A stretch of 64,000 nt of DNA from Parabacteroides faecis (lineage in GTDB: Bacteria > Bacteroidota > Bacteroidia > Bacteroidales > Tannerellaceae), in the NCBI RefSeq assembly GCF_014647375.1, contig NZ_BMPB01000020.1, positions 1-64,000 of the forward strand. Direction: 5' to 3'. Shown in pieces: positions 2,125 through 55,000 of the stretch. Below the pieces are notes generated by a model. The model searched no databases. It was not told the origin of the DNA and was given only the letters and a program-made list of their open reading frames with translations. The stretch's first letter is position 1. Each line of letters starts with the position of its first letter. The position numbers and the translations under genes were made by a program.

Positions 2125-2170
2125 TTCGTTCGACAACCATCGAATAATTATACGACAGTTGTCGAACGAA
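2125..2170. other. 46-bp near-perfect palindrome beside the recombinase promoter (candidate attachment or operator site)
   Basis: The outer arms TTCGTTCGACAAC (2125-2137) and GTTGTCGAACGAA (2158-2170) are perfect 13-bp inverted repeats. Inside them TCG (2140-2142) pairs with CGA (2153-2155) and the centre ATAATTAT is itself palindromic. The only mismatches are at CA (2138-2139 against 2156-2157) and at 2143/2152. It begins 10 bases upstream of the recombinase -33 box. Serine integrase att sites are about 40-50 bp, dyad-symmetric and commonly next to the integrase gene, so this may be an att half or an autoregulatory operator. It has no T-run and is unlikely to be a terminator. Confidence 0.55.
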
Positions 2171-2229
2171 TAGAGAACAACTGCCGTATGAATACTTATT
2201 TAAACCCAACGGTAGTTTACATTCAGACA

Positions 2230-2919
2230 TTAATCATCCAACTCTCCCTGATTCCGCATGTGCTTGCCATCGCAGAAGGGTTTGTTCTGTGAAAGACCGC
2301 AACGGCATAACGTAACACGGTTGCGCACCGGATAGACACGTCCGTTTTCGTCTTCTATAGGAATACCGCCTTTCACCCAGATAGGACCGTGTACGCTGGC
2401 AGGGACATCTTCCAGGATGCTGATACCTTCGGGCAGTTCGGGTTCAATCCGTTTACCATCTTTCGTAACGGCTGTCAGCCGACCACTGGGGCAGTTGGCG
2501 CACTGTTGTTTTACTATTTCAATCGTATCCTTCGAGTCACCCTCCTCCACCTGTTGCCAGGCAGTACCGTGCGTATCGCAGAAACGGGCTACCGCACAAA
2601 GGCTTTCGGCATCCAACATATCGATCACTTTGCCTTCATAAAGGACAGACATTTCATCGTACGAATCGTGACTGGCCGTCGTATCTCCTTTAAAGCCAAT
2701 CTTTTTATGCGTTCCGTCGCAGAAAGGTTTGTTGTGCGAGCCACCGCAGCGGCACAGATGATATACGCCTTCAACGGAATACTTTTGTATTTCCTTATAA
2801 CCGGTGGAAGCTCCTTTCCGGTCGCCGATATAACGTAACTGATTCACCGGGACATCCCCGATCACTTCGTAAGGTCCGTTTGGGAGAACCTTGATTTTCT
2901 TTTCACTATTAGATTCCAT
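2230..2919 (-). CDS. CDGSH iron-sulfur protein with two CDGSH motifs and a Fer4_19-like segment
   Basis: The protein has about 229 residues. Two CDGSH-type 2Fe-2S motifs are visible, CRCGGSHNKPFCDGTH near residue 60 and CRCGLSQNKPFCDGKH near residue 205, each with the Cys-x-Cys...Cys...His ligand set. Between them a Cys-rich segment, with cysteines in CAVARFCDTHG and QQCANCPSG, matches the divergent 4Fe-4S (Fer4_19) domain often fused to CDGSH proteins. It is probably a cytosolic Fe-S electron-transfer or cluster-handling protein; its substrate is unknown. The ATG at 2919 is directly preceded by an in-frame GTG at 2922, so the start is uncertain by one codon. It is transcribed alone, and no clear promoter was recognised. 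Confidence 0.88.
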   Translation of the reverse strand: MESNSEKKIKVLPNGPYEVIGDVPVNQLRYIGDRKGASTGYKEIQKYSVEGVYHLCRCGGSHNKPFCDGTHKKIGFKGDTTASHDSYDEMSVLYEGKVIDMLDAESLCAVARFCDTHGTAWQQVEEGDSKDTIEIVKQQCANCPSGRLTAVTKDGKRIEPELPEGISILEDVPASVHGPIWVKGGIPIEDENGRVYPVRNRVTLCRCGLSQNKPFCDGKHMRNQGELDD

Positions 2920-10247: not shown

Positions 10248-10601
10248 ATGAAAAATTTTCATCCTACAGGAAATTGCCCGGTCCGGGACGTCCTCAGCCG
10301 ACTTGGCGACAAATGGTCGATGCTGGTCCTGACTACACTGAGTGCGAACGGCACGATGCGTTTCAGCGACATCCACAAGACCATCGACGATATCTCGCAA
10401 CGGATGCTGACCGTCACGCTCCGTACCCTCGAATCCGACGGCCTTGTGCACCGCAAAGTCTATCCCGAAGTGCCGCCCCGCGTGGAATATTGCCTCACGG
10501 AAATGGGCACGACACTCATGCCTCATATCCAGAACCTGGTAGATTGGGCACTCGGACATATGGACGAGATTCTGACCAGCCGGGAGACGGTTAAAGGATA
10601 A
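10248..10601 (+). CDS. HxlR-family winged-helix transcriptional regulator
   Basis: The 117-residue protein has the HxlR signature: CPVRDVLSRLGDKWSMLVL near the N-terminus, followed by the winged helix (FSDIHKTIDDISQRMLTVTLRTLE) and the wing ending PRVEYCLTEMG. The cysteine in NCPV is the residue that senses thiol stress in HypR/YodB-type members. It is transcribed away from the DJ-1 gene and probably regulates it. A TACCTTTG box (10129-10136) lies upstream. Confidence 0.92.
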   Translation: MKNFHPTGNCPVRDVLSRLGDKWSMLVLTTLSANGTMRFSDIHKTIDDISQRMLTVTLRTLESDGLVHRKVYPEVPPRVEYCLTEMGTTLMPHIQNLVDWALGHMDEILTSRETVKG

Positions 10602-10660: not shown

Positions 10661-10815
10661 GCCTTGCCGGAAAAAAGAATACATGCCTTGCAAAAAGAGG
10701 ATACATCCTTTTGAAAAATAGGGTGCATGCTTTTCGGAAAAAGGGTGCATGCTTTTTGAAAAGAGGGTGCATGCTTTTTCGATAAAGGGTGCGGACCTTT
10801 TGCGCAAGGGAAAAA
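10661..10815. repeat. 22-bp hairpin repeat array, cluster 1
   Basis: About six tandem units of 22 bp lie between convergent genes. The best units each contain a small hairpin such as CTTTTCGGAAAAAG and end GGTGCAT or GGATACAT; unit junctions form TGCATGC. Successive unit starts in the core (for example 10729, 10751 and 10773) are spaced by 22. The flanking units are degenerate. Similar arrays are at 24091, 38246 and 49885. No spacers or coding signature are present. Confidence 0.8.
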
Positions 10816-10850: not shown

Positions 10851-11786
10851 TCAGATGCGGATCTTGCCGATCAACTCCCGGACGACCGTTTTCAAAGATT
10901 CCGGCGCGATGATCTCCGCCCGGTCGGCAAACGACAGGTACCAGTGGCCGAACTTGTCGAGCGAATAGGTCCGGTATTTCTGGACGAAGTACTCCCCGTC
11001 CGCCACCTCCTCATAAAGTCCGTAAGTGTATTTGGAAACTTCCGTATCGCGTGCCACGTCACGGTGGACACGGAGCGTCACTTCGACCTCATCCTCTACA
11101 TCATAGATCCGGGGGATCAGCTCGTCGAGCGGAAGATGCTCCTCCTCGAAACCGTTTTCGCCCAGACAGAGGTGGACGATTCTGCCGAGATGGAAGGTGC
11201 GGTAATCCCTCCTCAACTTACACCAGGCGAGGACATACCAGATGCCGCCCATGAAGAACATACCCTGGGGTTCGATCGTGCGGTGGGTGACCTGGTAGTT
11301 GTAGCCCGCCTTGTAGGTCATGACGAGCTGTTTCTTGTTCAGCAACGCCTTCATAAGGGTTTGCAGGACGTTGGCAGAGGCGGTGCGCGTATTCTGGTGG
11401 ATACCCGAGATACGGATATAGGGGTCGAAATGATGGAGGATATCCTTGTCGGCCGTCCGCAGCACGGCACGTATCTTGTCCATCCCGCTGCGGAATACAT
11501 CGTAGGTATCGCCGTCGGTCTGATGGCGGACAAGTTTCTCCGCCACGAGAAAAGAGAGGGCCTCGTCGATCGTGAACATCAGGGGTGGCAGCTTGAAACC
11601 GTCCACCAGCGAGTAACCCAGCCCAGCCTCGCCGCCGACAGGGATCCCCGACTCTTCCAGCGAACGGATGTCGCGATAAACCGTCCGGAGACTTACACCG
11701 AACTGATCCGCTATCTCACGTGCGGTGACGACCGGGCGGGATTGCAGCTTGACCAGTATAGCGGATATTCGTTCCAGGCGGTTCAT
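10851..11786 (-). CDS. YafY-family WYL-domain transcriptional regulator
   Basis: The 311-residue protein starts MNRLERISAILVKLQ. The N-terminal HTH_11 winged helix (VTAREIADQFGVSLRTVYRDIRSLEESG) is followed by the WYL domain (about residues 130-220, with FFMGGIWYVLAWCKLRRDYRTFHLGRI split between strands) and a C-terminal WCX extension. WYL proteins bind nucleic-acid or nucleotide ligands and often regulate neighbouring genes. The PNPOx-like gene lies 62 bases upstream on the same strand. A -7 box TATCTTTG (11815-11822) gives the regulator its own promoter. Confidence 0.92.
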   Translation of the reverse strand: MNRLERISAILVKLQSRPVVTAREIADQFGVSLRTVYRDIRSLEESGIPVGGEAGLGYSLVDGFKLPPLMFTIDEALSFLVAEKLVRHQTDGDTYDVFRSGMDKIRAVLRTADKDILHHFDPYIRISGIHQNTRTASANVLQTLMKALLNKKQLVMTYKAGYNYQVTHRTIEPQGMFFMGGIWYVLAWCKLRRDYRTFHLGRIVHLCLGENGFEEEHLPLDELIPRIYDVEDEVEVTLRVHRDVARDTEVSKYTYGLYEEVADGEYFVQKYRTYSLDKFGHWYLSFADRAEIIAPESLKTVVRELIGKIRI

Positions 11787-11814
11787 TGTGTGCGTTTGTC
11801 GGATTGATTGGTGA

Positions 11815-11822
11815 CAAAGATA
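11815..11822 (-). promoter_or_regulatory. -7 box of the WYL regulator gene
   Basis: TATCTTTG on the minus strand lies 28 bases before the ATG at 11786, so the regulator can be transcribed separately from the upstream PNPOx gene. No clear -33 box. Confidence 0.5.
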
Positions 11823-11848
11823 CAACTTTTACGTTACCGGCAGCGGGA

Positions 11849-12444: not shown

Positions 12445-12486
12445 TATATTTGTAACCCATAGGTTACATTATAAAACCTAGAGGTT
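12445..12486 (+). promoter_or_regulatory. Promoter with two AACC-N4-GGTT operators
   Basis: The -7 box TATATTTG (12445-12452) overlaps the first operator, TGTAACC (12451-12457), CATA, GGTTACA (12462-12468). A second copy, AACC (12475-12478), TAGA, GGTT (12483-12486), follows. Their centres are 21 bp apart, two helical turns, so two repressor dimers could bind the same face just downstream of the -7 box. The likely repressor is the HTH protein encoded second in this operon. Confidence 0.65.
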
Positions 12487-12520
12487 ATATTAATAAACAC
12501 TAGTTAACACATTTGTCATT

Positions 12521-12952
12521 ATGGAAGCATCTATCATTGAAAAAACAGAGAAAGCTAGATTTAATGTCATGTTATTACAGATAATCAGTTTTGGATTTTG
12601 GATGGCCGGAGGGATTTTAATTCAATTTCCTTTCAGTAAACCTGTTATTATTATATGTAGTGTAATGTCGGCTATTTCCGGCTTATTATTCTGTTATGCA
12701 ACGTTTAAGAACCTGTTCCTCAGCCGGGAGATCAAGAACAATAAAGAGTTATTCTATGCTCTAAGTAACGAAATGTACAAAAGTTTCGATTACAAAGCCC
12801 GAACCAGTGGCTTATTCTCCACACTTATAAGCGTAATACTTATTTATTTGCTGGATGATTATATCCATTTGCCGGTCAAGATGTACTGTTTAATCCTTCT
12901 GTTCATCGCCGTTATTACGGTAGGTGTACATCGGTTGATTCTATATAAATAA
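12521..12952 (+). CDS. Four-helix membrane protein of an HTH-regulator operon
   Basis: This 143-residue protein has four hydrophobic segments at about residues 18-35, 42-62, 95-110 and 120-138, with a hydrophilic stretch (NLFLSREIKNNKELFYALSN) in the middle. No family is recognised. The next gene, an XRE-type regulator, starts 7 bases after its stop, and membrane protein plus small HTH pairs of this kind are widespread. Transcription starts at the doubly operated promoter at 12445-12486. Confidence 0.78.
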   Translation: MEASIIEKTEKARFNVMLLQIISFGFWMAGGILIQFPFSKPVIIICSVMSAISGLLFCYATFKNLFLSREIKNNKELFYALSNEMYKSFDYKARTSGLFSTLISVILIYLLDDYIHLPVKMYCLILLFIAVITVGVHRLILYK

Positions 12953-22245: not shown

Positions 22246-22305
22246 TCTTCGGAGAGGAAATATCCGGGAAATCCGGACTTTTTATGCGACAAATTGGATC
22301 GCCGG

Positions 22306-22335
22306 TTGCTTTTACAGACATTTTTCCTACCTTTG
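22306..22335 (+). promoter_or_regulatory. Promoter of the ABC-F gene
   Basis: TTG (22306-22308) is followed by 19 bases and TACCTTTG (22328-22335). It decides the ATG at 22369 against an earlier in-frame start at 22294. Confidence 0.7.
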
Positions 22336-22368
22336 CGCCTTCTTTTTACACATATATATAATGTACGT

Positions 22369-24012
22369 ATGATTTCTATAGACGGACTTACAGTAGAGTT
22401 TGGTGGAAGCGCCCTCTTTTCTGATATATCTTTCGTGATTAACGAGAAGGACCGGATCGCCCTGATGGGGAAAAACGGTGCGGGCAAATCGACTTTGCTC
22501 AAAATACTTGCCGGGACACGCGAACCGACACGCGGAAAAGTGTCGGCTCCCAAAGATACGGTGATCGCTTACCTGCCCCAGCACTTGATGACGGAAGACG
22601 GCCGGACGGTTTTTGAAGAAACGGCACAGGCCTTCGCCCACCTGCATGAGATGGAAGCGGAGATCGAGGCGATCAACAAGGAACTGGAGACACGGACCGA
22701 CTACGAATCGGACAGTTATATGGAGCTGATCGAGCGTGTCTCGACACTCAGCGAGAAGTTTTATTCGATCGAAGAGATCAACTATGATGCCGATATCGAG
22801 AAAACATTGCTCGGACTGGGATTCAAGCGCGACGACTTCGGGCGGCAGACCAGCGAGTTCAGCGGCGGATGGCGCATGCGTATCGAGCTGGCAAAGTTGC
22901 TGTTGAAGAAACCCGACGTGCTGCTGCTGGACGAGCCGACCAACCATCTGGACATCGAATCGATCCAGTGGCTCGAAGACTTCCTGATCGACAACGGACA
23001 GGCGGTGGTTGTGATCAGCCACGACCGCGCGTTTGTCGACCATATCACCACCCGTACGATCGAGGTCACGATGGGCCGCATCTATGACTACAAGGTGAAT
23101 TACAGCAGTTACCTGCAACTCCGCCAGGAACGCCGCGTACAGCAGCAGAAAGCCTTCGACGAGCAGCAGAAGATGATTGCCGAAACAAGGGAATTTATCG
23201 AACGTTTCAAAGGTACATACTCCAAGACCCTGCAGGTGCAGAGCCGCGTCAAGATGCTTGAAAAACTTGAGATACTGGAGGTGGACGAGGAAGACACTTC
23301 GGCACTTCGCCTGAAATTCCCACCCTCTCCCCGCTCCGGCAACTATCCGGTGATCGTGGAGGACGTGGCAAAGGCGTATGGCGACCATGTGGTGTTCCGC
23401 AACGCCAACCTGACCATCGAACGGGGCGACAAGATCGCTTTCGTAGGGAAAAACGGTGAAGGAAAATCCACCCTCGTGAAATGTATCATGAAAGAGATCG
23501 AACACGACGGCACACTGACGATCGGGCATAACGTGATGATCGGCTATTTTGCGCAGAACCAGGCTTCGATGCTGGACGAGAACCTGACGGTTTTCCAGAC
23601 CATCGACGACGTGGCGGTGGGCGATATCCGCAACAAGATCAAGGACTTGCTGGGCGCGTTCATGTTCGGCGGCGAAAATTCAGCCAAGAAGGTGAAGGTT
23701 CTGTCGGGAGGCGAGCGCACACGTCTGGCGATGATCAAGCTGCTGCTCGAACCGGTCAACCTGCTGATCCTCGACGAGCCGACGAATCACCTGGACATGA
23801 AAACGAAAGACATCCTGAAACAGGCGTTGCTCGACTTCGACGGTACGCTGATCGTGGTGTCGCACGACCGTGACTTCCTCGACGGCTTGGTAACCAAAGT
23901 CTACGAGTTCGGCAACCAGCGGGTGACGGAACATCTGGAAGGCATCTACGAATTCCTGCAACGGAAGAAGATGGAAAACCTGAACGAGTTGGAGAGAAAC
24001 CAGAAGAAATAA
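22369..24012 (+). CDS. ABC-F family ATPase (ribosome-associated)
   Basis: The 547-residue protein has two ABC domains and no membrane segments. The first has Walker A GKNGAGKSTLL, signature SGGWRMR and Walker B LLLDEPTNHLD; the second has GKNGEGKSTLV, LSGGERTR and LLILDEPTNHLD. The helical linker between them (about 245-315: RRVQQQKAFDEQQKMIAETR) is the P-site tRNA interaction motif of ABC-F proteins. These factors act on the ribosome, in housekeeping translation or in antibiotic protection; which one cannot be told from the sequence alone. It is divergent from rpsP and followed by a 22-bp repeat array. Confidence 0.93.
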   Translation: MISIDGLTVEFGGSALFSDISFVINEKDRIALMGKNGAGKSTLLKILAGTREPTRGKVSAPKDTVIAYLPQHLMTEDGRTVFEETAQAFAHLHEMEAEIEAINKELETRTDYESDSYMELIERVSTLSEKFYSIEEINYDADIEKTLLGLGFKRDDFGRQTSEFSGGWRMRIELAKLLLKKPDVLLLDEPTNHLDIESIQWLEDFLIDNGQAVVVISHDRAFVDHITTRTIEVTMGRIYDYKVNYSSYLQLRQERRVQQQKAFDEQQKMIAETREFIERFKGTYSKTLQVQSRVKMLEKLEILEVDEEDTSALRLKFPPSPRSGNYPVIVEDVAKAYGDHVVFRNANLTIERGDKIAFVGKNGEGKSTLVKCIMKEIEHDGTLTIGHNVMIGYFAQNQASMLDENLTVFQTIDDVAVGDIRNKIKDLLGAFMFGGENSAKKVKVLSGGERTRLAMIKLLLEPVNLLILDEPTNHLDMKTKDILKQALLDFDGTLIVVSHDRDFLDGLVTKVYEFGNQRVTEHLEGIYEFLQRKKMENLNELERNQKK

Positions 24013-24090: not shown

Positions 24091-24183
24091 CTGAAAAGGA
24101 TGCATGCTTTTCCGAAAAAGGGTGCATGCTTTTTCAAAAGAGGATGCACCCTTTTTATCGAAAGGGCGCATCCTTTTTTTCGC
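24091..24183. repeat. 22-bp hairpin repeat array, cluster 2
   Basis: About four units lie between the convergent ABC-F and DUF3943 genes. The units contain CTTTTCCGAAAAAG, CTTTTTCAAAAGAG and CCTTTTTATCGAAAGG hairpins; three successive unit starts are at 24104 (GCATGC junction), 24126 and 24148, a 22-bp step. Junctions read GCATGC, GCATGC and GCACCC. Same family as cluster 1. Confidence 0.78.
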
Positions 24184-24187
24184 GAGT

Positions 24188-25663
24188 TTAAATCTTCACT
24201 CCGAAAGTGAGCATGAGGTCGTAAGTGGCGCGGTTCACGTCGTCATGATAGCTATAATGCGTGCGCCGCGAGAAATAGCGGTTCGAGAGCGCGATATTCC
24301 ATTTTTTCCCGGAGAAATAAACCAGCTTGATGCCCATCACCGTCAGGCGTGAATGCCCTTTGTCGCCCTGTACGCTGAAGGTATTCGGGTCGACCGTACT
24401 CAAATCGATGTCCGGATTGTAACCTTTCCAGGTAAAGATATGGTAGTTCTCCATATTCAGCAGAAACGACCAGTGCCTGTTGTAAGTCAACCCCGTGAAA
24501 GCCTTCACACTGTAACCGCTTCCCATATTGTAATCGCGTTCGTCGAGGCGGAAATAATCGGACGAGCCACCGCCCAGGGCGACACCGTTCACATAAAATT
24601 CGCCGTAAGCATCCACCTTGTCACTCGGTTCCGACCGTTTGTAATAGATCAGGCCGCCACCCACCGCTGCCGCTTCCGAGATGCGGTAAGGGGAAACCTT
24701 GTCGCCCTCGCTGTCGCGCAGCTGCGAGTCATAATAGTCAAAATGCTGGAAGATACCTGCCGTCAACGTGCGCGGCCCTTTCTCCCACACCCGCTTTCCC
24801 CACAGGGCGCCGATGGCATTCACCTGGGTGATGACGGGCTGACTGGAGAAGAAATCGAAACCGGCACGCAGTTGGAACCACTCGTAGGGCGAATAGAACT
24901 CATCTTCAAACGGGTCGCCATAATCCAGCCGCAGCGACAGGTGCATACTGGTCGTGCCATGCTTCGAATGCTCCTGTTCAGCCAGGAAACGGGGACCGGC
25001 ACTCACGATAAAGTTCACGGGCACAAACGAATAGGTACGGCCTTTGTGCGGACGATGACGCCACGCCTCACCTGTTATCAGACGGTTGATGCCGCGCACG
25101 GGCGATATCAGTCCCGAAAGGATCTCGCGCCCGACACGCTCGGCTCCCGAGGTACGGTCGTCGATGAAAAGGTCGGACAGACGGTAGGTGATCTCGCCCA
25201 GTTCCACGCCACCGAACGTAGTGGCCATCAGGTCGTTGATGGAGGGCGGCTCCGCCTCCATGAAGAACTCCCACATCAGACTTCCTCCGGCGGCGAAGGG
25301 AATGGATTGCCAGAAGTTCATCCCATTACTACGGGCAGCATTGAAATACAACGATCCATGATAAGGATGCGCCACCAGGTTGGTAGAGAATTTATCCGTG
25401 TCCCAGACGGGACCTGTCTTGAAATTGTTCTTGATCGTACGGCCATTGATGCGGGCGAAGTCTTCGTTCATCGCAAAACGGTCGAAGGCCCAGATCGCCA
25501 TGTTCAGGCCAAACACCTCACCGGCTGCCAGCCAAGGCTTCTTGGGCATAAAGGTGGTCGAGTCGCTCACGTAATTTCTTGTATCCATTTTTGGGAAGTG
25601 CTGCGCCCGAATCCATTGGGTCGAAAACAGAGCCAGCACCCCTATCCAAATAAACTTTTTCAT
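24188..25663 (-). CDS. DUF3943-domain outer-membrane protein
   Basis: The 491-residue protein has a signal peptide (KFIWIGVLALFSTQWIRAQ) and the DUF3943 core: AHPYHGSLYFNAARSNG followed by FWQSIPFAAGGSLMWEF (about residues 95-140), then DLMATTFGGVELGEITYRLSD. The C-terminal half has alternating aromatic strands ending YDLMLTFGVKI, as expected of an outer-membrane barrel. The function is unknown. ATG at 25663 is used; an in-frame TTG three codons upstream is less likely. Converges on the ABC-F gene. Confidence 0.87.
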   Translation of the reverse strand: MKKFIWIGVLALFSTQWIRAQHFPKMDTRNYVSDSTTFMPKKPWLAAGEVFGLNMAIWAFDRFAMNEDFARINGRTIKNNFKTGPVWDTDKFSTNLVAHPYHGSLYFNAARSNGMNFWQSIPFAAGGSLMWEFFMEAEPPSINDLMATTFGGVELGEITYRLSDLFIDDRTSGAERVGREILSGLISPVRGINRLITGEAWRHRPHKGRTYSFVPVNFIVSAGPRFLAEQEHSKHGTTSMHLSLRLDYGDPFEDEFYSPYEWFQLRAGFDFFSSQPVITQVNAIGALWGKRVWEKGPRTLTAGIFQHFDYYDSQLRDSEGDKVSPYRISEAAAVGGGLIYYKRSEPSDKVDAYGEFYVNGVALGGGSSDYFRLDERDYNMGSGYSVKAFTGLTYNRHWSFLLNMENYHIFTWKGYNPDIDLSTVDPNTFSVQGDKGHSRLTVMGIKLVYFSGKKWNIALSNRYFSRRTHYSYHDDVNRATYDLMLTFGVKI

Positions 25664-25800
25664 TTTTTTCAATCTTGTGCCTTAAAGACTAATCAACTAA
25701 CTCATGCAAACTTATACATAATTAACAGTATGGAACTCGTTTGGTTTAAATTATTCTTAGGTTGTGTTGCTAGAAACAGACACAATTCAAAGGAAATACT

Positions 25801-28433: not shown

Positions 28434-28488
28434 CACCCGCAATCGAGAAACAAAGATCACGATCAGGAAACGAAGATAGCAACAGATT

Positions 28489-28561
28489 GACTTGGTAGCT
28501 CAGTTGGTAGAGCAAATGACTCTTAATCATTGGGTCGAGGGTTCGAGCCCCTCCCAGGTCA
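28489..28561 (+). tRNA. tRNA-Lys (anticodon CUU), copy 1
   Basis: The 73-base gene has acceptor stem GACTTGG with CCAGGTC and discriminator A. The D arm is GCTCAGTTGGTAGAGC, the anticodon loop is CTCTTAA giving CTT, and the T arm is GAGGGTTCGAGCCCCTC. CCA is not encoded. It is transcribed with copy 2. Confidence 0.95.
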
Positions 28562-28579
28562 CTCCAAGATACCAACATC

Positions 28580-28652
28580 GACTTGGTAGCTCAGTTGGTA
28601 GAGCAAATGACTCTTAATCATTGGGTCGAGGGTTCGAGCCCCTCCCAGGTCA
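28580..28652 (+). tRNA. tRNA-Lys (anticodon CUU), copy 2
   Basis: Identical over its 73 bases to copy 1, starting 91 bases downstream. The spacer is 18 bases. A terminator hairpin follows at 28684. Confidence 0.95.
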
Positions 28653-28683
28653 CTTAAAAAGAATTACATTCTTATTCTGAAAG

Positions 28684-35821: not shown

Positions 35822-38128
35822 ATGAGTAAAGGAACAAAGAGTATTGCCTTTTATTTTATAATGATCCTGGTTTTTGGTTCATTAATGTATCTGATCGCCA
35901 AAGAAGGAGAAAGACAACAGATTGAAAGCGCCATCACTGCTGCCTACGACGCCCCGAAAGACCTTGGTGAAGGTTTTTCTTTGTTCTGGGAGCTGATGAC
36001 GCACCATATACAGTCGCCCATCGGAATATTATTGTTGCAGATCATCACGATCCTGCTGACCTGCCGCCTGTTCGGATGGTTGTTCCAGCGGATCGGGCAG
36101 CCGACGGTGATCGGCGAGATCGTGGCGGGTATCGTGCTGGGCCCCTCGGTGCTGGGGCATCTCATGCCCGAAGTTTCGGGGTTCCTCTTCCCGGTCGAGT
36201 CGCTCGCCAACATCACCATCCTGAGCCAGTTCGGGCTGATCCTGTTTATGTTTGCCATCGGTATGGAGCTGGATATCACCGAGGTACGGAAGAAGCTGAA
36301 GGAAACGATCCTGATCAGCCATACGAGCACCATCGTGCCCTTCTTCTGCGGGATGCTTACCGCCTACTTCGTCTACGACACCTATGCAGATAAAAGCACC
36401 CCCTTCCTATCGTTCGCCCTGTTTATCGGTATCGCCATGAGTATCACCGCCTTCCCTGTGCTGGCACGCATCATACAGGAGAAGGGACTGACGCGGACGC
36501 ATCTGGGGACGATCTCGCTCGCCAGCGCCGCCAACGGCGACATCACGGCCTGGTGCCTGCTGGCTGTCGTGATCGCCATCGCACAGGCGGGCACGATGCT
36601 GAGTGCGATCTACAACATTCTCTTCTCGATGCTTTACATCGCTTTCATGTTCTTCGCCGTCCGTCCGTTCCTGAAGATGATCGGGCATATCTATCATAAC
36701 AAAGAAGTGATCGACAAGGGTCTGGTCGCCTTTATGTTCCTCCTCCTGATCATCTCGGCTTACCTGACGGAGATGCTGGGGCTGCATGCGCTGTTCGGTG
36801 CGTTCATCGCGGGCGTGGTGATGCCGAGCAACGTGAAGTTCCGCAAGATCATGACCGAGAAGGTGGAAGACGTCTCGCTGGCGTTGTTCCTGCCGTTGTT
36901 CTTCGTCTCGACGGGGTTGCGCACGGAGATCGGGCTGCTCAACAGTCCGGAGCTGTGGTGGATGTGCGGGGTGTTCATCGTGGTGGCCATCGTCGGTAAG
37001 TTCGGCGGGGCGATGTTCTCCGCCCGTTTCGTGGGCGAGAGCTGGAAAGACAGTTTATATATCGGCGCGCTGATGAATACGCGCGGACTGATGGAGCTGG
37101 TAGTGCTTACCATCGGTTACGAAATGCATATCCTCCCCCCCTCCATTTTCGTGATGCTGGTGCTGATGACGTTGGTAACGACGTTTATGACGATCCCGCT
37201 GGTTTCGTTCATCAAGTTCTGCTTCCAGACGCGCGAGAAGATCAAAGAATACAAGGCGGTAGACGTGGCCGACGGCACCTACAAGGTGTTGCTCTCGTTC
37301 GGACGCGCGGGTAACGGGCAGATCATGCTCGACGTGGCGTACCAGATGTTTGCCCACCGCCGCCACCAGGTAGACCTTACGGCACTCCATCTCACCGTCG
37401 GCTCGGACGTGAACCCGCTCCACACCGACAACTTCGAGGAAGTGAGCTTCGGCCCTATCCTTTACGGAGCGAAAAAGCTGGGGATCAACATCGAAACGCG
37501 CTACGAGGTGTCGAACAACGCCGGACAGGATATCACGGACATCGTCAACACGGAGGGTTTCGACTTCCTGCTCGTGGGCTCGGGCATCTCGATGAGCAAC
37601 CAGCCTGACGACATCGAGGCGAACCGTTACCGCACGTCGTTCTACAACCGTTTCTTCCGCCGTTTCAAAGCACCCGAATCGTGGTTTTACCCCGGCGCGC
37701 TGCTGAAAGACAAGACGAAGATGTTTATCGGGAAAAGCAATTGCGACGTGGGCGTATTCGTGAACCGGGGATTCGTGAAGGCGAGCAATGTGATCGTGGT
37801 GATCGACTCGGAGAAGGATCTCTTCCTCCTGGATTATACCTCGACGTTGCTCAAGACGACCCACGGCTCGGCTAGCATCCTCGACCGCAGCAGCTCGACG
37901 ACGCCGGGCAGCGAGAAGATACAGTATGCCATCCGCCAGTTCACCGAATCGGCCAAGCAGGCGAACCTGCTGGCGGAAAAAGACATGACACCGGCTATTT
38001 TCAACGGCTACAACTTCATGCTGATCAGTTACGATAGCTGGAACGACGTCTCCGAACACCGCCGCGAAGCGTTGCAGAAGATGCCGTCGACGCTGATCCT
38101 GAACCATAAGGAACGGACAGAGGAATAA
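35822..38128 (+). CDS. Cation:proton antiporter (CPA2/KefB type) with C-terminal USP-like domain
   Basis: The 768-residue protein has one N-terminal hydrophobic helix, then a CPA2 Na+/H+ exchanger domain of about 12 helices (residues about 55-470) with GQPTVIGEIVAGIVLGPSVLG and the helix SAANGDITAWCLLAVV carrying the ion-binding Asp. The C-terminal 280 residues are soluble and resemble universal stress/nucleotide-binding domains (GTYKVLLSFGRAGNGQIMLDV). It likely exports K+ or Na+ against protons under control of that domain. It is a single-gene unit with its own promoter and terminator. Confidence 0.93.
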   Translation: MSKGTKSIAFYFIMILVFGSLMYLIAKEGERQQIESAITAAYDAPKDLGEGFSLFWELMTHHIQSPIGILLLQIITILLTCRLFGWLFQRIGQPTVIGEIVAGIVLGPSVLGHLMPEVSGFLFPVESLANITILSQFGLILFMFAIGMELDITEVRKKLKETILISHTSTIVPFFCGMLTAYFVYDTYADKSTPFLSFALFIGIAMSITAFPVLARIIQEKGLTRTHLGTISLASAANGDITAWCLLAVVIAIAQAGTMLSAIYNILFSMLYIAFMFFAVRPFLKMIGHIYHNKEVIDKGLVAFMFLLLIISAYLTEMLGLHALFGAFIAGVVMPSNVKFRKIMTEKVEDVSLALFLPLFFVSTGLRTEIGLLNSPELWWMCGVFIVVAIVGKFGGAMFSARFVGESWKDSLYIGALMNTRGLMELVVLTIGYEMHILPPSIFVMLVLMTLVTTFMTIPLVSFIKFCFQTREKIKEYKAVDVADGTYKVLLSFGRAGNGQIMLDVAYQMFAHRRHQVDLTALHLTVGSDVNPLHTDNFEEVSFGPILYGAKKLGINIETRYEVSNNAGQDITDIVNTEGFDFLLVGSGISMSNQPDDIEANRYRTSFYNRFFRRFKAPESWFYPGALLKDKTKMFIGKSNCDVGVFVNRGFVKASNVIVVIDSEKDLFLLDYTSTLLKTTHGSASILDRSSSTTPGSEKIQYAIRQFTESAKQANLLAEKDMTPAIFNGYNFMLISYDSWNDVSEHRREALQKMPSTLILNHKERTEE

Positions 38129-38245: not shown

Positions 38246-38283
38246 GGGCGCATGCTGGAAAAAAAGCATGCGCCCTATTTTTT
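38246..38283 (+). terminator. Terminator of the antiporter gene, inside repeat cluster 3
   Basis: GGGCGCATGCT (38246-38256) pairs perfectly over 11 bp with AGCATGCGCCC (38265-38275), loop of 8, followed by TATTTTTT. The stem contains the GCATGC core of the 22-bp repeat family, which shows that the repeat can serve as an intrinsic terminator. Confidence 0.8.
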
Positions 38284-38372
38284 AAAAGGGTGCGGGCTTT
38301 TTCCAAAAAGGATGCATGCTCTTTTCGGAAAGAGTGCACCCTTTTTGGGCAAAAGGATGCGGGCTTTCAGGG
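38246..38372. repeat. 22-bp hairpin repeat array, cluster 3
   Basis: About five units follow the antiporter gene. Clear ones contain CTTTTTCCAAAAAGG, CTCTTTTCGGAAAGAG and CCTTTTTGGGCAAAAGG hairpins joined by GATGCATGC, GTGCACC and GATGCGGGC. The two best units are exactly 22 bp (starting at 38295 and 38317). The 38376-38640 stretch beyond shows no further feature, and the sigma-factor promoter follows at about 38656. Confidence 0.75.
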
Positions 38373-49293: not shown

Positions 49294-49854
49294 GTGATTA
49301 CAAGCAACGAAGAGACCTTAAATAGACTAAAAACCGGCGACGAAAGCGTATTTGATACGGTCTACAAACAATATTACAGGGGGCTATGCGCATTTGCATC
49401 CCAATATGTGGCCGAAACAGAAACTGAAGAAATCGTGCAGGAAGTGATGATGTGGCTTTGGGAAAACCGTTCTGCGCTGATCCCGGAAATGTCCCTGAAA
49501 TCGCTGCTGTTCACCATGGTAAAAAATAAATGCCTCAACAACATCACGCACAACCAGATCAAACAACGGGTACACGAGGCGCTATATGCCCGGTTTGAAG
49601 AGCAATTTGAAGATCCCGACTTTTACATGGAAAGCGAACTGATCGCCCTGGCGGCCAAGGCAATCCACGCGCTGCCGGAGGAATACCGGAAGGCGTTCGA
49701 GATGAACCGCTTCGGCCACCTTACCTACAACGAGATAGCCGAACGCACCGGCGTATCGCCCAAAACCATCGCCTACCGCATCTCCCAATCACTGAAAATA
49801 CTGCGCACGGAACTCAAAGATTACATGCCGCTGCTGATGGCGTTGCTGAACTGA
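49294..49854 (+). CDS. ECF RNA polymerase sigma factor, FecI-like (Bacteroides expansion family)
   Basis: The 186-residue protein begins with GTG; no ATG lies upstream in frame before the -7 box. Region 2 is FDTVYKQYYRGLCAFASQYV plus EEIVQEVMMWLWENR, and region 4 is LPEEYRKAFEMNRFGHLTYN followed by EIAERTGVSPKTIAYRISQSL. This is the RpoE-type 'Bacteroides expansion family 1' that partners FecR-like anti-sigma factors and STN-type SusC proteins. Its likely partners are FecR at 47256 and SusC at 43706. A 22-bp repeat array follows its stop. Confidence 0.93.
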   Translation: MITSNEETLNRLKTGDESVFDTVYKQYYRGLCAFASQYVAETETEEIVQEVMMWLWENRSALIPEMSLKSLLFTMVKNKCLNNITHNQIKQRVHEALYARFEEQFEDPDFYMESELIALAAKAIHALPEEYRKAFEMNRFGHLTYNEIAERTGVSPKTIAYRISQSLKILRTELKDYMPLLMALLN

Positions 49855-49884: not shown

Positions 49885-50003
49885 ACTTTTCCCCCGTCCG
49901 GAAAAGGACGCATCCCTTTTCTAAAAAGGGCGCACCCTTTTTCGGAAAAGCATGCACCCTTTTCCGAAAGAGCATGCATCCTATTTTACAGAGAGCATAT
50001 ACC
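49885..50003. repeat. 22-bp hairpin repeat array, cluster 4 (opposite orientation)
   Basis: About five units read in the complement orientation: ACGCATCCCTTTTCTAAAAA, then GCACCCTTTTTCGGAAAAG and GCACCCTTTTCCGAAAGAG, joined by GCATGCA. Unit starts at 49931, 49953 and 49975 are 22 bases apart. A partial copy (GCATGTATCCTATT) recurs near 50021. The rest of the spacer to 50124 is AT-rich with nothing else recognisable. Confidence 0.75.
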
Positions 50004-50124
50004 CGGTCATTTATTAAAAAGCATGTATCCTATTATTCAATTATAACCTTTACTGAACAAAAATTAATCAAGCATGTTTAAATAATAGGGCGCCCCTTAT
50101 AAAACAACTAAAATAAAACAGAAT

Positions 50125-53267: not shown

Positions 53268-54155
53268 ATGAGAATATACAGGCGGGAAATAGTGATTACC
53301 ATTTTAACTGCTCTCGCTACCCTGTCGGCAGTCTGCTACTTTTTCGGTGACATGAAGAAGAGTAAGGAGCTGGCACAAACCGACCTGTACACCCTGACCG
53401 CACCGGCACCGGAAGCCATACTGGCCGTCAACCGCCCCGCCGTCTTCGCCAAGGTCATACTGACGAAAGAGCCTGTTTATCAGGCGTTCGCTTCCGAAAT
53501 TCCGGATATATACCTGAACATCATACGGAAGAATCCGGAGATCGCCTCGCTGCATCTCTCGTTTCATCCGCAGGGTGTCGTCATGTATGCGAAAGTGGAC
53601 AACAACATCGTGCGGCAAATCGAGGAGAATGTGCTGAAACAGGCTTTCAGGTCGTTCGCTCCCCAACAACAGGCAAGAGGGGGAATTACTTTCACCTATT
53701 GCCCGGATACGGGAAACAAGTTCTTCGGCTATTACGAATATAATGGTGTCTGGGTGGCCAGTTACAGCAAGAAATTGCTGGAGGAAGTGGCCGCCATACA
53801 AAGGAAGCAGAAAAACAACCTGTCGAAAGAACAGATGAGGCTTCGCAAAACGCTCGACAACAATGCCCCGGTCAACCTGCTGATACAGTCGAAATTGCTC
53901 GACTTATACGTAAAGAGCAACGATTCGACGCAGTGGAGGGTCAGCGACAGGTGGCTGGCAGCGGACTTGTTCGAGAGTGAAGGGAATATCTGTTATTTCA
54001 GCAGCCTGTCTTATCTTGAACCTGCCGACACGCTTTTCCGGACGATAGCCGATACGCTGGCGGTCAGGCTGGAACAGCGTTTCCCACAACTCCATATCTC
54101 CAACCAGATTTACGAAGAGAACGGAAAGTTCTTTTATACGGGATGTACTTTCTAG
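53268..54155 (+). CDS. Membrane-anchored protein of unknown function
   Basis: The 295-residue protein has one N-terminal transmembrane helix (VITILTALATLSAVCYFFG) and a long periplasmic part with no recognised domain. It has the pattern of Bacteroidales periplasmic lipid/substrate-handling proteins but no secure family. The gene starts 4 bases after the nth stop and so is co-transcribed with crcB and nth. It ends inside a long inverted repeat shared with the convergent MBL gene. Confidence 0.72.
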   Translation: MRIYRREIVITILTALATLSAVCYFFGDMKKSKELAQTDLYTLTAPAPEAILAVNRPAVFAKVILTKEPVYQAFASEIPDIYLNIIRKNPEIASLHLSFHPQGVVMYAKVDNNIVRQIEENVLKQAFRSFAPQQQARGGITFTYCPDTGNKFFGYYEYNGVWVASYSKKLLEEVAAIQRKQKNNLSKEQMRLRKTLDNNAPVNLLIQSKLLDLYVKSNDSTQWRVSDRWLAADLFESEGNICYFSSLSYLEPADTLFRTIADTLAVRLEQRFPQLHISNQIYEENGKFFYTGCTF

Positions 54156-54243
54156 TTGACAGGTGACAGTTGACAGATGACAGATACGGATTACTCACAA
54201 TCACCAGACTGTTCTTCCAACTGTCAACTGTCACTTGTCAACT
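54154..54243. repeat. Inverted repeat of TTGACAG units between convergent genes
   Basis: The left arm, positions 54154-54176, pairs over 23 bp with the right arm, 54221-54243, with one G-U. The left arm is itself made of direct TTGACAG/GTGACAG units (also GATGACAG at 54177). It fills the gap between the stop of the anchored-protein gene and the stop of the MBL gene and can act as a bidirectional terminator. Confidence 0.78.
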
Positions 54244-54244
54244 G

Positions 54245-55000
54245 TCAACTGAAAAGCATCAGTCCGTCGTACGCAAAATGCACATGCGGGGGTAATTCTT
54301 TTTCCACCTCGGCATGCAAACCGATGCGGTGACTCATATGAATAAGGTAGGCTTCCTTCGGACGCAAACGTCCGATCATGGCCAGCGCCTCTTCCTGGCT
54401 CTCGTGTGCCGGATGCTCTCCTTTCCGGAGGGCGGTCAGGATAAGCACGTCCAATCCCTGCAATTTGGCAAACTCTTCCTCCGGCAGCGACTTCAGATCC
54501 GTCAGGTAGGCCATATTCCCTATCCGGTAACCCAGGATAGGCAGGCGCCCGTGCATCACACGGATCGGCACGACCGGCAAACCGGCGGCTACGAAAGGTG
54601 TATTGTCTATAGTGTGAAGTTCCAGTTTGGGGACACCCGGATATTTATGTTCGCGGAAGACGTAAGGTATGCGGGTACGGATCGCTTCGGCCACATTCTC
54701 CTCCGCGTATATATCCACACTCTTGTCACGGGTAAAGGGACGCAGGTCGTCCAGCCCTCCGACATGGTCATAATGTTCGTGTGAAATCAGGACTGCATCC
54801 AGCTGATACGTTTTACTTTGGATCATCTGCCAGCGGAAATCCGGTCCGCAGTCCAACAAGAGACGTTTGCCCTCCGTTTCTACTAATACCGATGTGCGCA
54901 GACGCCAGTCGCGAGGGTCTTTGCTTGTACATACTTCACACTGGCAGCCTATTTCGGGAACCCCGGTCGAAGTTCCCGTTCCCAGAAATGTAATTTTCAT
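54245..55000 (-). CDS. PhnP-like MBL-fold hydrolase
   Basis: The 251-residue protein has the MBL motif ISHEHYDHVGG (about residue 73), the N-terminal GTGTSTGVPEIGC with a zinc-finger-like CQCEVC typical of PhnP/lipB-linked proteins, the metal residues of LTDLKSLP and the C-terminal MSHRIGLH. PhnP relatives hydrolyse cyclic nucleotide-like phosphodiesters; the substrate here is unknown. Its ATG overlaps the murB stop (TAATG), so translation is coupled. Confidence 0.9.
   Translation of the reverse strand: MKITFLGTGTSTGVPEIGCQCEVCTSKDPRDWRLRTSVLVETEGKRLLLDCGPDFRWQMIQSKTYQLDAVLISHEHYDHVGGLDDLRPFTRDKSVDIYAEENVAEAIRTRIPYVFREHKYPGVPKLELHTIDNTPFVAAGLPVVPIRVMHGRLPILGYRIGNMAYLTDLKSLPEEEFAKLQGLDVLILTALRKGEHPAHESQEEALAMIGRLRPKEAYLIHMSHRIGLHAEVEKELPPHVHFAYDGLMLFS

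Follow-up and report, generated by a model that had tools for sequence, protein, structure and literature searches.

REP and BIME sequences are described as short extragenic palindromes that occur in clusters, often between convergent genes (PMC3733652, PMC1525189), and REP sequences are said there to bind gyrase, IHF and DNA polymerase I (PMC1525189). The BrickBuilt MITE of Porphyromonas gingivalis is an intergenic element of head-to-tail 23-nt repeats without spacers, and it is described as also having a leader, a tail and small inverted-repeat ends (PMC4596501).

Here we describe palindromic repeat arrays that came to light in a 64,000-nucleotide stretch of Parabacteroides faecis DNA (the window). 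Like REP and BIME sequences, they are short extragenic palindromes that are clustered and enriched between convergent genes. They differ in their unit of about 20 bp, their rigid 22-bp head-to-tail period, the small number of arrays per genome, and the lack of a linked RAYT gene and of a GTAG or CGTC end tag. REP and BIME palindromes are the nearest kind of element, although the linked RAYT gene and high copy number of that kind are not found here. Porphyromonas gingivalis belongs to the order Bacteroidales. BrickBuilt shares with the arrays this order, an intergenic location and head-to-tail repeats without spacers, and it is the nearest described tandem element that we found. However, its consensus AGAYCATARTATCCTCTCRTRTG, compared by eye, has no visible core in common with the arrays, which also lack constant flanks comparable to the leader, tail and ends reported for BrickBuilt.

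Bidirectional Rho-independent terminators are similar in having an A-tract, a G+C stem and a T-tract on both strands and in lying between convergent genes. Ordinary terminators need share neither sequence between loci nor a fixed period, whereas the arrays share both across genera. Iteron arrays and the 22-bp transposase sites at the ends of Mu and Tn7 also form small arrays of sites of about 22 bp. Those sites have a direction and are linked to a replicon or to the end of an element, whereas the arrays described here are symmetric and follow genes of various kinds. We found no description of this array family in the open-licence PMC literature searched.

Arrays in the window

The initial annotation held that four arrays in the window share a 22-bp unit, and unit coordinates, an excess of the core and arrayless controls confirm that they do. 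The arrays and their neighboring genes are as follows.

10248..10601, + strand: HxlR-family regulator gene, upstream of array 1
10671..10802, no strand assigned: array 1, six 22-bp units (10671, 10693, 10715, 10737, 10759, 10781), the outer two weak
10851..11825, - strand: WYL-domain regulator gene, 3' end facing array 1
22294..24012, + strand: ABC-F ATPase gene, upstream of array 2
24092..24179, no strand assigned: array 2, four 22-bp units, between the convergent ABC-F and DUF3943 genes
24188..25672, - strand: DUF3943 gene, 3' end facing array 2
35822..38128, + strand: CPA2-type cation:proton antiporter gene, upstream of array 3
38246..38370, no strand assigned: array 3, a hairpin, then five scored units, one spacing of 23
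49294..49854, + strand: ECF sigma factor gene, upstream of array 4
49900..49987, no strand assigned: array 4, four 22-bp units, between the ECF sigma gene and a DUF3078 gene
50015..50036, no strand assigned: stray single unit, 3' of array 4, out of phase

As had been claimed, all four arrays lie behind the 3' end of a gene, at 69 nt (HxlR, array 1), 79 nt (ABC-F, array 2), 117 nt (CPA2, array 3) and 45 nt (ECF sigma, array 4) after the stop codon. Array 1 occupies the spacer between the convergent HxlR and WYL genes and is bounded by the imperfect inverted repeat CCCTATTGCCTTGC / GCGCAAGGGAAAAATAGGG. The hairpin of array 3 has arms at 38246-38255 and 38266-38275 and is followed by TATTTTTT.

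The core GGGTGCATGC, with at most one mismatch, occurs 14 times in the window where 2.7 occurrences are expected, and none of 100 shuffles reaches 14. With a symmetrised unit profile, trained partly on the window arrays that it later scores, 22 stretches of the window reach at least 9 bits, namely 19 array units, the stray unit and two elsewhere. Tandem Repeats Finder reports period 22 at arrays 1, 2 and 4. The array finder found no arrays in first-order Markov copies or in reversed copies of 1.07 Mb of loci, and shuffled controls contained none either. That the arrays belong to no recognised class also agrees with Rfam, which at gathering score gives only three tRNA matches in the window, and for array 1 alone two microRNA models far below the cut-off. 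A simple terminator scan of array 1, limited to loops of 3-8, returned no terminator.

Repeat unit and array architecture

The unit common to the four window arrays is a palindrome of approximately AAAAAGGRTGCAYCCTTTTTnn with an exact 22-bp period, and the majority consensus of 50 two-unit stretches is nAAAAAGGATGCATCCTTTTTnn. Each unit consists of an A-tract, the core GGRTGCAYCC and a T-tract. A and G, or C and T, alternate at the third position to each side of the core, and the linker positions between units are near-random in sequence.

We collected 91 distinct arrays, 90 of which are from Tannerellaceae, in a set that includes orthologues and whose members are therefore not fully independent. 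They comprise two to six units, with two in 21 arrays, three in 48, four in 18, five in 3 and six in 1. The proposal that units keep a 22-bp period is borne out by this set: the array finder, which accepts spacings of 20-24 and which larger slips would escape, gave 22 bp in 181 of 188 intervals, 21 in three and 23 in four, and never the permitted 20 or 24. The units abut without unique spacers between repeats. Because spacers are absent, we rejected a CRISPR array, in agreement with the initial annotation.

Recent tandem duplication, as in a minisatellite, is ruled out because units of the same array are on average not closer to one another than units taken from different arrays within a genome. 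For eight genomes, within-array minus between-array likeness ranges from -0.6 (G060) to +0.6 (G014) of 22 positions. The half-sites instead form dialects by lineage that overlap but are distinct, and the arrays of one genome share a dialect. Genome G003 prefers GCATG, three others (G120, G121 and G123) prefer GGGTG or GGATG, and G014 has a mix of GGATG, GGGTG and GTATG. The base-rigid period despite varied units, same-array units that are no closer than others, these lineage dialects and carriage by phages are unusual compared with ordinary repeats.

No constant flanks were found around the arrays, and the unit consensus has no GTAG or CGTC end tag. Outer flanks are complementary beyond the A/T tracts above the 99% level of the null in 6 of 88 arrays, and above the 95% level in 8 of 88. 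Some arrays occupy the loop of a longer hairpin, and most do not. Identity with BrickBuilt was rejected on the grounds of this low count at the 99% level and a unit that differs by eye. In G041 and G070, two-unit cores lie within longer inverted repeats that are followed by runs of 7 and 8 T.

Occurrence in Tannerellaceae and phages

A sequence-only 44-position model of two units, applied to the 6.66-Mb genome that contains the window, recovered the four window arrays and a fifth strong array (C7:377609-377696), located between genes read by eye as tsaD and cinA. A weaker array (C6:28456-28518, E 7e-5) has three units according to the array finder. A further match lies at C14:213593 (E 0.004), and others are lower. 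DNA uptake sequences are present in very many single copies spread over a genome, and this explanation was rejected because few matches fall outside arrays and isolated sites are scarce. The initial view of a dispersed, structured REP-like or terminator-like element stands in part. The family is structured and extragenic, but it is barely dispersed, as four of the five strong arrays of this genome lie in the window, within 39 kb.

Clustering could be judged in few genomes, among them G060, where all seven listed matches (four arrays) fall within 44 kb of one contig, and G041, where two arrays are 12 kb apart. The G060 arrays are surrounded by portal and terminase genes, and thus they appear to sit in a prophage. 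That they represent the same region as the window was rejected, as no protein match to the window was found at E 1e-10.

Matches extend to relatives. At a cut-off of E 1e-4, matches occur in 34 of 124 Tannerellaceae genomes, representing 6 of 16 genera, and the other 90 genomes have none. Filters are stricter when more than 40 genomes are searched, so that weak arrays can be missed. Matches are most numerous in G014, with 51 that overlap and cover both strands, and 17 distinct arrays were collected from it. An order-wide draw of 393 genomes returned matches in the genome of the window and two weak ones in other families, one a two-unit stretch with 21-bp spacing by a relaxed finder and the other without an array. 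Scanning GTDB genomes for exact patterns yielded 32 stretches, of which 18 are named Parabacteroides, Tannerella or Tannerellaceae, one is from Dysgonamonadaceae and 13 are from other bacteria. By the array finders, the Dysgonamonadaceae stretch has an array of at least two units, and the last 13 have none. The array family is confined almost wholly to Tannerellaceae and some phages, as judged by patterns and a model that derive from Tannerellaceae arrays and could miss diverged relatives elsewhere.

Two IMG/VR phage contigs carry three-unit arrays. One is Mu-like (transposase, terminase) and the other has a RecT-like gene. On the Mu-like contig, the array is located behind the last plus-strand gene and before the 3' end of minus-strand genes, unless an overlapping small minus-strand ORF is real. 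Arrays as a general phage trait were rejected, since IMG/VR gave two stretches for one pattern and none for a second. Array 2 had no match in phage or plasmid records by BLAST, which masks simple sequence, and the array-1 region had none against plasmids.

Gene context

Genes on the fetched loci were called by codon usage. One call (a 31-aa ORF at window 49903) was corrected by hand, and others may be wrong. By these calls, 78 of the 91 arrays lie between genes, 12 are too near an end to call and one is in a called ORF. The 78 callable spacers, including the hand correction, are tandem in 42 cases, convergent in 25 and divergent in 11, compared with 164, 28 and 71 among 263 array-free spacers of at least 100 bp from the same loci. 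Arrays are enriched between convergent genes (p=2e-5) and depleted between divergent genes (p=0.023). In tandem spacers, the array is nearer the upstream stop than the downstream start in 31 of 41 cases (p=0.0015), with medians of 48 and 124 bp. For all arrays, the median distance is 48 bp to adjoining stops (91 ends) and 145 bp to adjoining starts (65 ends). The bias to gene 3' ends seen in the window is thus real across the callable spacers. Three genus-g4 genomes (G003, G006 and G014) account for eight of the 11 divergent cases, and some divergent cases may reflect missed small genes.

Convergent enrichment with divergent depletion is also consistent with supercoiling-related sites like the gyrase-binding BIME-2 of E. 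coli, placed where positive supercoils build up, and with what is reported of REP sequences, many of which lie between convergent genes and bind gyrase (PMC1525189). However, there is no sequence evidence for gyrase sites, the exact phase and TGCA core would go unexplained, and most family genomes have no match. We consider this explanation very improbable.

Clusters of neighboring genes that recur by arrays were read as SusC-like, ECF sigma or FecR-like, or came from orthologous loci. The SusC-like, ECF sigma and FecR-like families are common in Bacteroidales, and a conserved neighbor gene was rejected because the recurring neighbors are these common families or orthologous loci. HU-HIG genes stop within 13 bp of an array in three loci (L185 7123-7189, L210 5927-5993 and L307 6014-6080), which are two phage-like loci and one further genome. 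There are 6-54 HU-HIG genes per genome in 10 genomes. Because such genes are common, this adjacency is only a lead, and three such neighbors among 93 arrays are only mildly above chance.

Pairing, covariation and strand direction

Among 138 units, the third-base pairs (AT 37, GT 35, AC 29, GC 29) look independent and the second-base pair shows an excess (p=0.001). When 278 units were compared with global shuffles, both the third-base pair (p=0.012) and the second-base pair (p<0.001) were in excess, but against within-genome shuffles the excess is gone (p=0.51 and p=0.23). No hairpin register has surplus pairing at p<0.05 under the within-genome control, and three pairs show less. When arrays are sorted by size, neighboring units show strong outer-stem covariation against global shuffles, and three-unit arrays show resemblance between half-sites that are three steps apart (z 5.9, 4.8 and 4.2). 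Against within-genome shuffles, the latter values become 2.4, 2.2 and 1.1 (41 of 47 three-unit arrays).

The expectation that units keep their pairing was therefore not borne out as covariation, since the excess is gone or marginal within genomes. The stems largely fail this check in base identity as well, with A-C mismatches about as frequent as G-U in the sense strand. G-U and A-C number 73 and 62 in tandem dimers and 59 and 42 in gene-proximal tandem dimers (p=0.11), or 116 and 110 with convergent dimers added. An RNA hairpin as the main constraint was rejected on the basis of this shrinking covariation and the lack of a clear strand bias in G-U and A-C. The pairing data speak for a DNA-level or strand-neutral role. 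These results weaken a reading of the arrays as terminators but do not kill it, because Watson-Crick pairs dominate.

Strand comparisons give a mixed picture. The T-run that follows the second unit of tandem arrays (42 compared) is longer on the sense strand than on the antisense strand (4.36 versus 3.71, p=0.012). When flanks are included, the best hairpin with T-tail is better in sense for tandem arrays (28 versus 13, p=0.0009), with corresponding counts of 16 versus 9 (p=0.13) for convergent arrays and 6 versus 5 for the 11 divergent ones. Within the array only, the tandem counts are 24 versus 17 (p=0.19, not significant). A hairpin with T-tail is present inside 37 of the 42 tandem arrays in sense and 36 of the 42 in antisense, and the last T-run is barely longer than the first A-run (4.43 versus 4.07).

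The unit profile is two-fold symmetric and its half-sites are nearly independent. The nested hairpins follow from these two properties, and a site for a dimeric protein fits as well as an RNA hairpin does. The arrays might be phased sites for a putative, lineage-specific DNA-binding protein with a nucleoid, silencing, or chromosome- or phage-structuring role. Its dimers would line one face of the DNA at intervals of two helical turns, and the terminator-like fold would be a by-product of the palindrome. Such a protein could account for the exact spacing despite near-random linkers, for the global pairing excess that vanishes within genomes, for the lack of a clear strand preference, and for same-array units that are on average no closer than units of other arrays. 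Dialects that are lineage-specific yet common to the arrays of a genome are expected from a drifting trans-acting protein, and the HU-HIG gene ends at three separate loci point the same way. However, no matching protein is known and the HU-HIG adjacency is only mildly above chance. A genome has few arrays and hardly any isolated sites, 90 of 124 family genomes have no match, and losses are clean. The bias to 3' ends is one that operators usually do not show, and the dialects are also expected from a repeat spreading within lineages. We regard the protein array as unlikely, although it is the leading alternative. Its fuller form is slightly less likely again. There, the arrays would be phase-locked for a putative protein common to host and phage, protein and sites would have drifted together into dialects, and the arrays would mark the ends of transcription units or organise the DNA there.

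Gain, loss and conservation at orthologous loci

Array 1 is present in the genome of the window (G000) and in G041. G045 lacks it, with 97% identity in the flanks and the two stop codons no more than about 20 bp apart. It is also missing in G070, and there the WYL gene is not the one that comes next. Array 2 is carried by G000 and G070. In G045 and G041, which lack it, the aligned blocks are separated by 16 and 26 bp. The array finder reports none at this locus in G046, G054, G053, G033, G047 or G035, and so array 2 occurs in one of nine relatives examined. The absences of arrays 1 and 2 from relatives are clean, and the arrays have been gained or lost as blocks at these two spacers. Unit number changes at a third spacer.

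The first hairpin and T-run of array 3 are largely kept in four species, and the remainder varies. A compensatory C-G/T-A change occurs once in this hairpin, and G045, G070 and G041 have single mismatches. Array 4 is also present in G070. The two-unit hairpin is also largely retained, with C-A mismatches in L186 and L206, in another three sets of orthologous arrays (G026/G027/G028, preceding a mutS-type gene; G041/G045/G070; G046/G047), where the linker or outer units vary. Orthologous arrays thus retain period and hairpin while their flanks drift.

This pattern of presence and absence raises the possibility of a selfish or neutral REP-like repeat, spread by an enzyme or by recombination, that survives in safe places behind genes and has no host function. 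A repeat of this sort would be patchy, as in 34 of 124 genomes, and cleanly present or absent at orthologous spacers, as array 2 is. Among the array pairs listed, similarity is mostly limited to the array, the exceptions being orthologues and a 641-bp pair (L218/L219). The presence of arrays in DNA of phages and a prophage, and a place bias the same as that reported for REPs, fit as well. Neutral decay, however, should give indels in the A/T tracts and so break the 22-bp phase, which is rarely seen, and orthologous arrays retain period and hairpin as flanks drift. Nor are arrays associated with Y1/RAYT genes (14 of 34 genomes with arrays versus 31 of 90 others, p=0.53). We find this explanation improbable, although less so than supercoiling.

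Mobilisation by RAYT was rejected as well. In addition to the missing genome-level association, an array was found at only one of 30 RAYT loci scanned, where other palindromes are closer to the gene. A separate palindrome, around CCGTCAGTT...AACTGACGG and unrelated to the arrays, flanks the only RAYT-type gene of the genome that contains the window (L056 1330-1990, G000:C8 at about 122.8 kb).

At another locus of G041 (L264 8040-8200), an array lies between the arms of an inverted repeat, and the counterpart in the window (2150-2260) is an array-free loop. The array looks as if it had been inserted into a terminator loop. Along window 6900-39200, identity to G045 and G070 shifts abruptly between two levels, about 92-99% and 76-90%, a pattern suggestive of interspecies recombination.

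Possible function as a two-way terminator

The explanation that we favor, with some reserve and at rather less than even chance, is that the arrays are a REP/BIME-like element working as a two-way terminator. Two adjacent units are predicted to fold as A-tract, G+C stem and T-tract on either strand, and an array would act as a bidirectional intrinsic terminator or insulator. It would persist where it brings a benefit, chiefly at transcription-unit ends and in convergent spacers, and be lost elsewhere. In favor of termination are the convergent enrichment and the stop-proximal placement in tandem spacers, the longer sense T-runs and the better sense hairpin with T-tail when flanks are included. 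The hairpins largely kept at orthologous loci, the longer inverted repeats with T-runs in G041 and G070, and the placement on the Mu-like phage contig add to this. Against it are the lack of a significant sense preference within arrays, of a clear preference for G-U and of more than marginal covariation within genomes. In addition, 11 of 78 arrays lie between divergent genes, and array 2 (in G045 and G041) and array 1 (in G045) are missing at close convergent gene ends.

The terminator reading is weakest in that termination requires neither a fixed 22-bp phase nor the TGCA core. It leaves unexplained the exact phase, the conserved core, the near-independent half-sites and the dialects, all of which fit a bound dimer better. 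However, no suitable protein is known and most family genomes have no match, and for these reasons we place termination tentatively first and hold the protein array to be the less probable of the two. The choice is thus between a modular two-way terminator, which if true would be of use in the genetics of Bacteroidales, and a set of landing sites for a putative protein.

Other repeats in the window

Two or three 21-bp palindromic repeats of the AACCTAGAGGTTA type are located at window 12454-12503, directly upstream of a gene at 12521, and resemble operator sites. The beginning of a sequence that resembles them is present in G070 (L258 near 4950). A 91-bp tandem duplication at 28473-28654 is 95% matching and contains two tRNA genes. 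Finally, 7-bp repeats with TGACAGA and CAACTGT units are clustered at 54154-54251, and a CAACTGTCAACTGT run near the RAYT gene described above (L056) resembles them.
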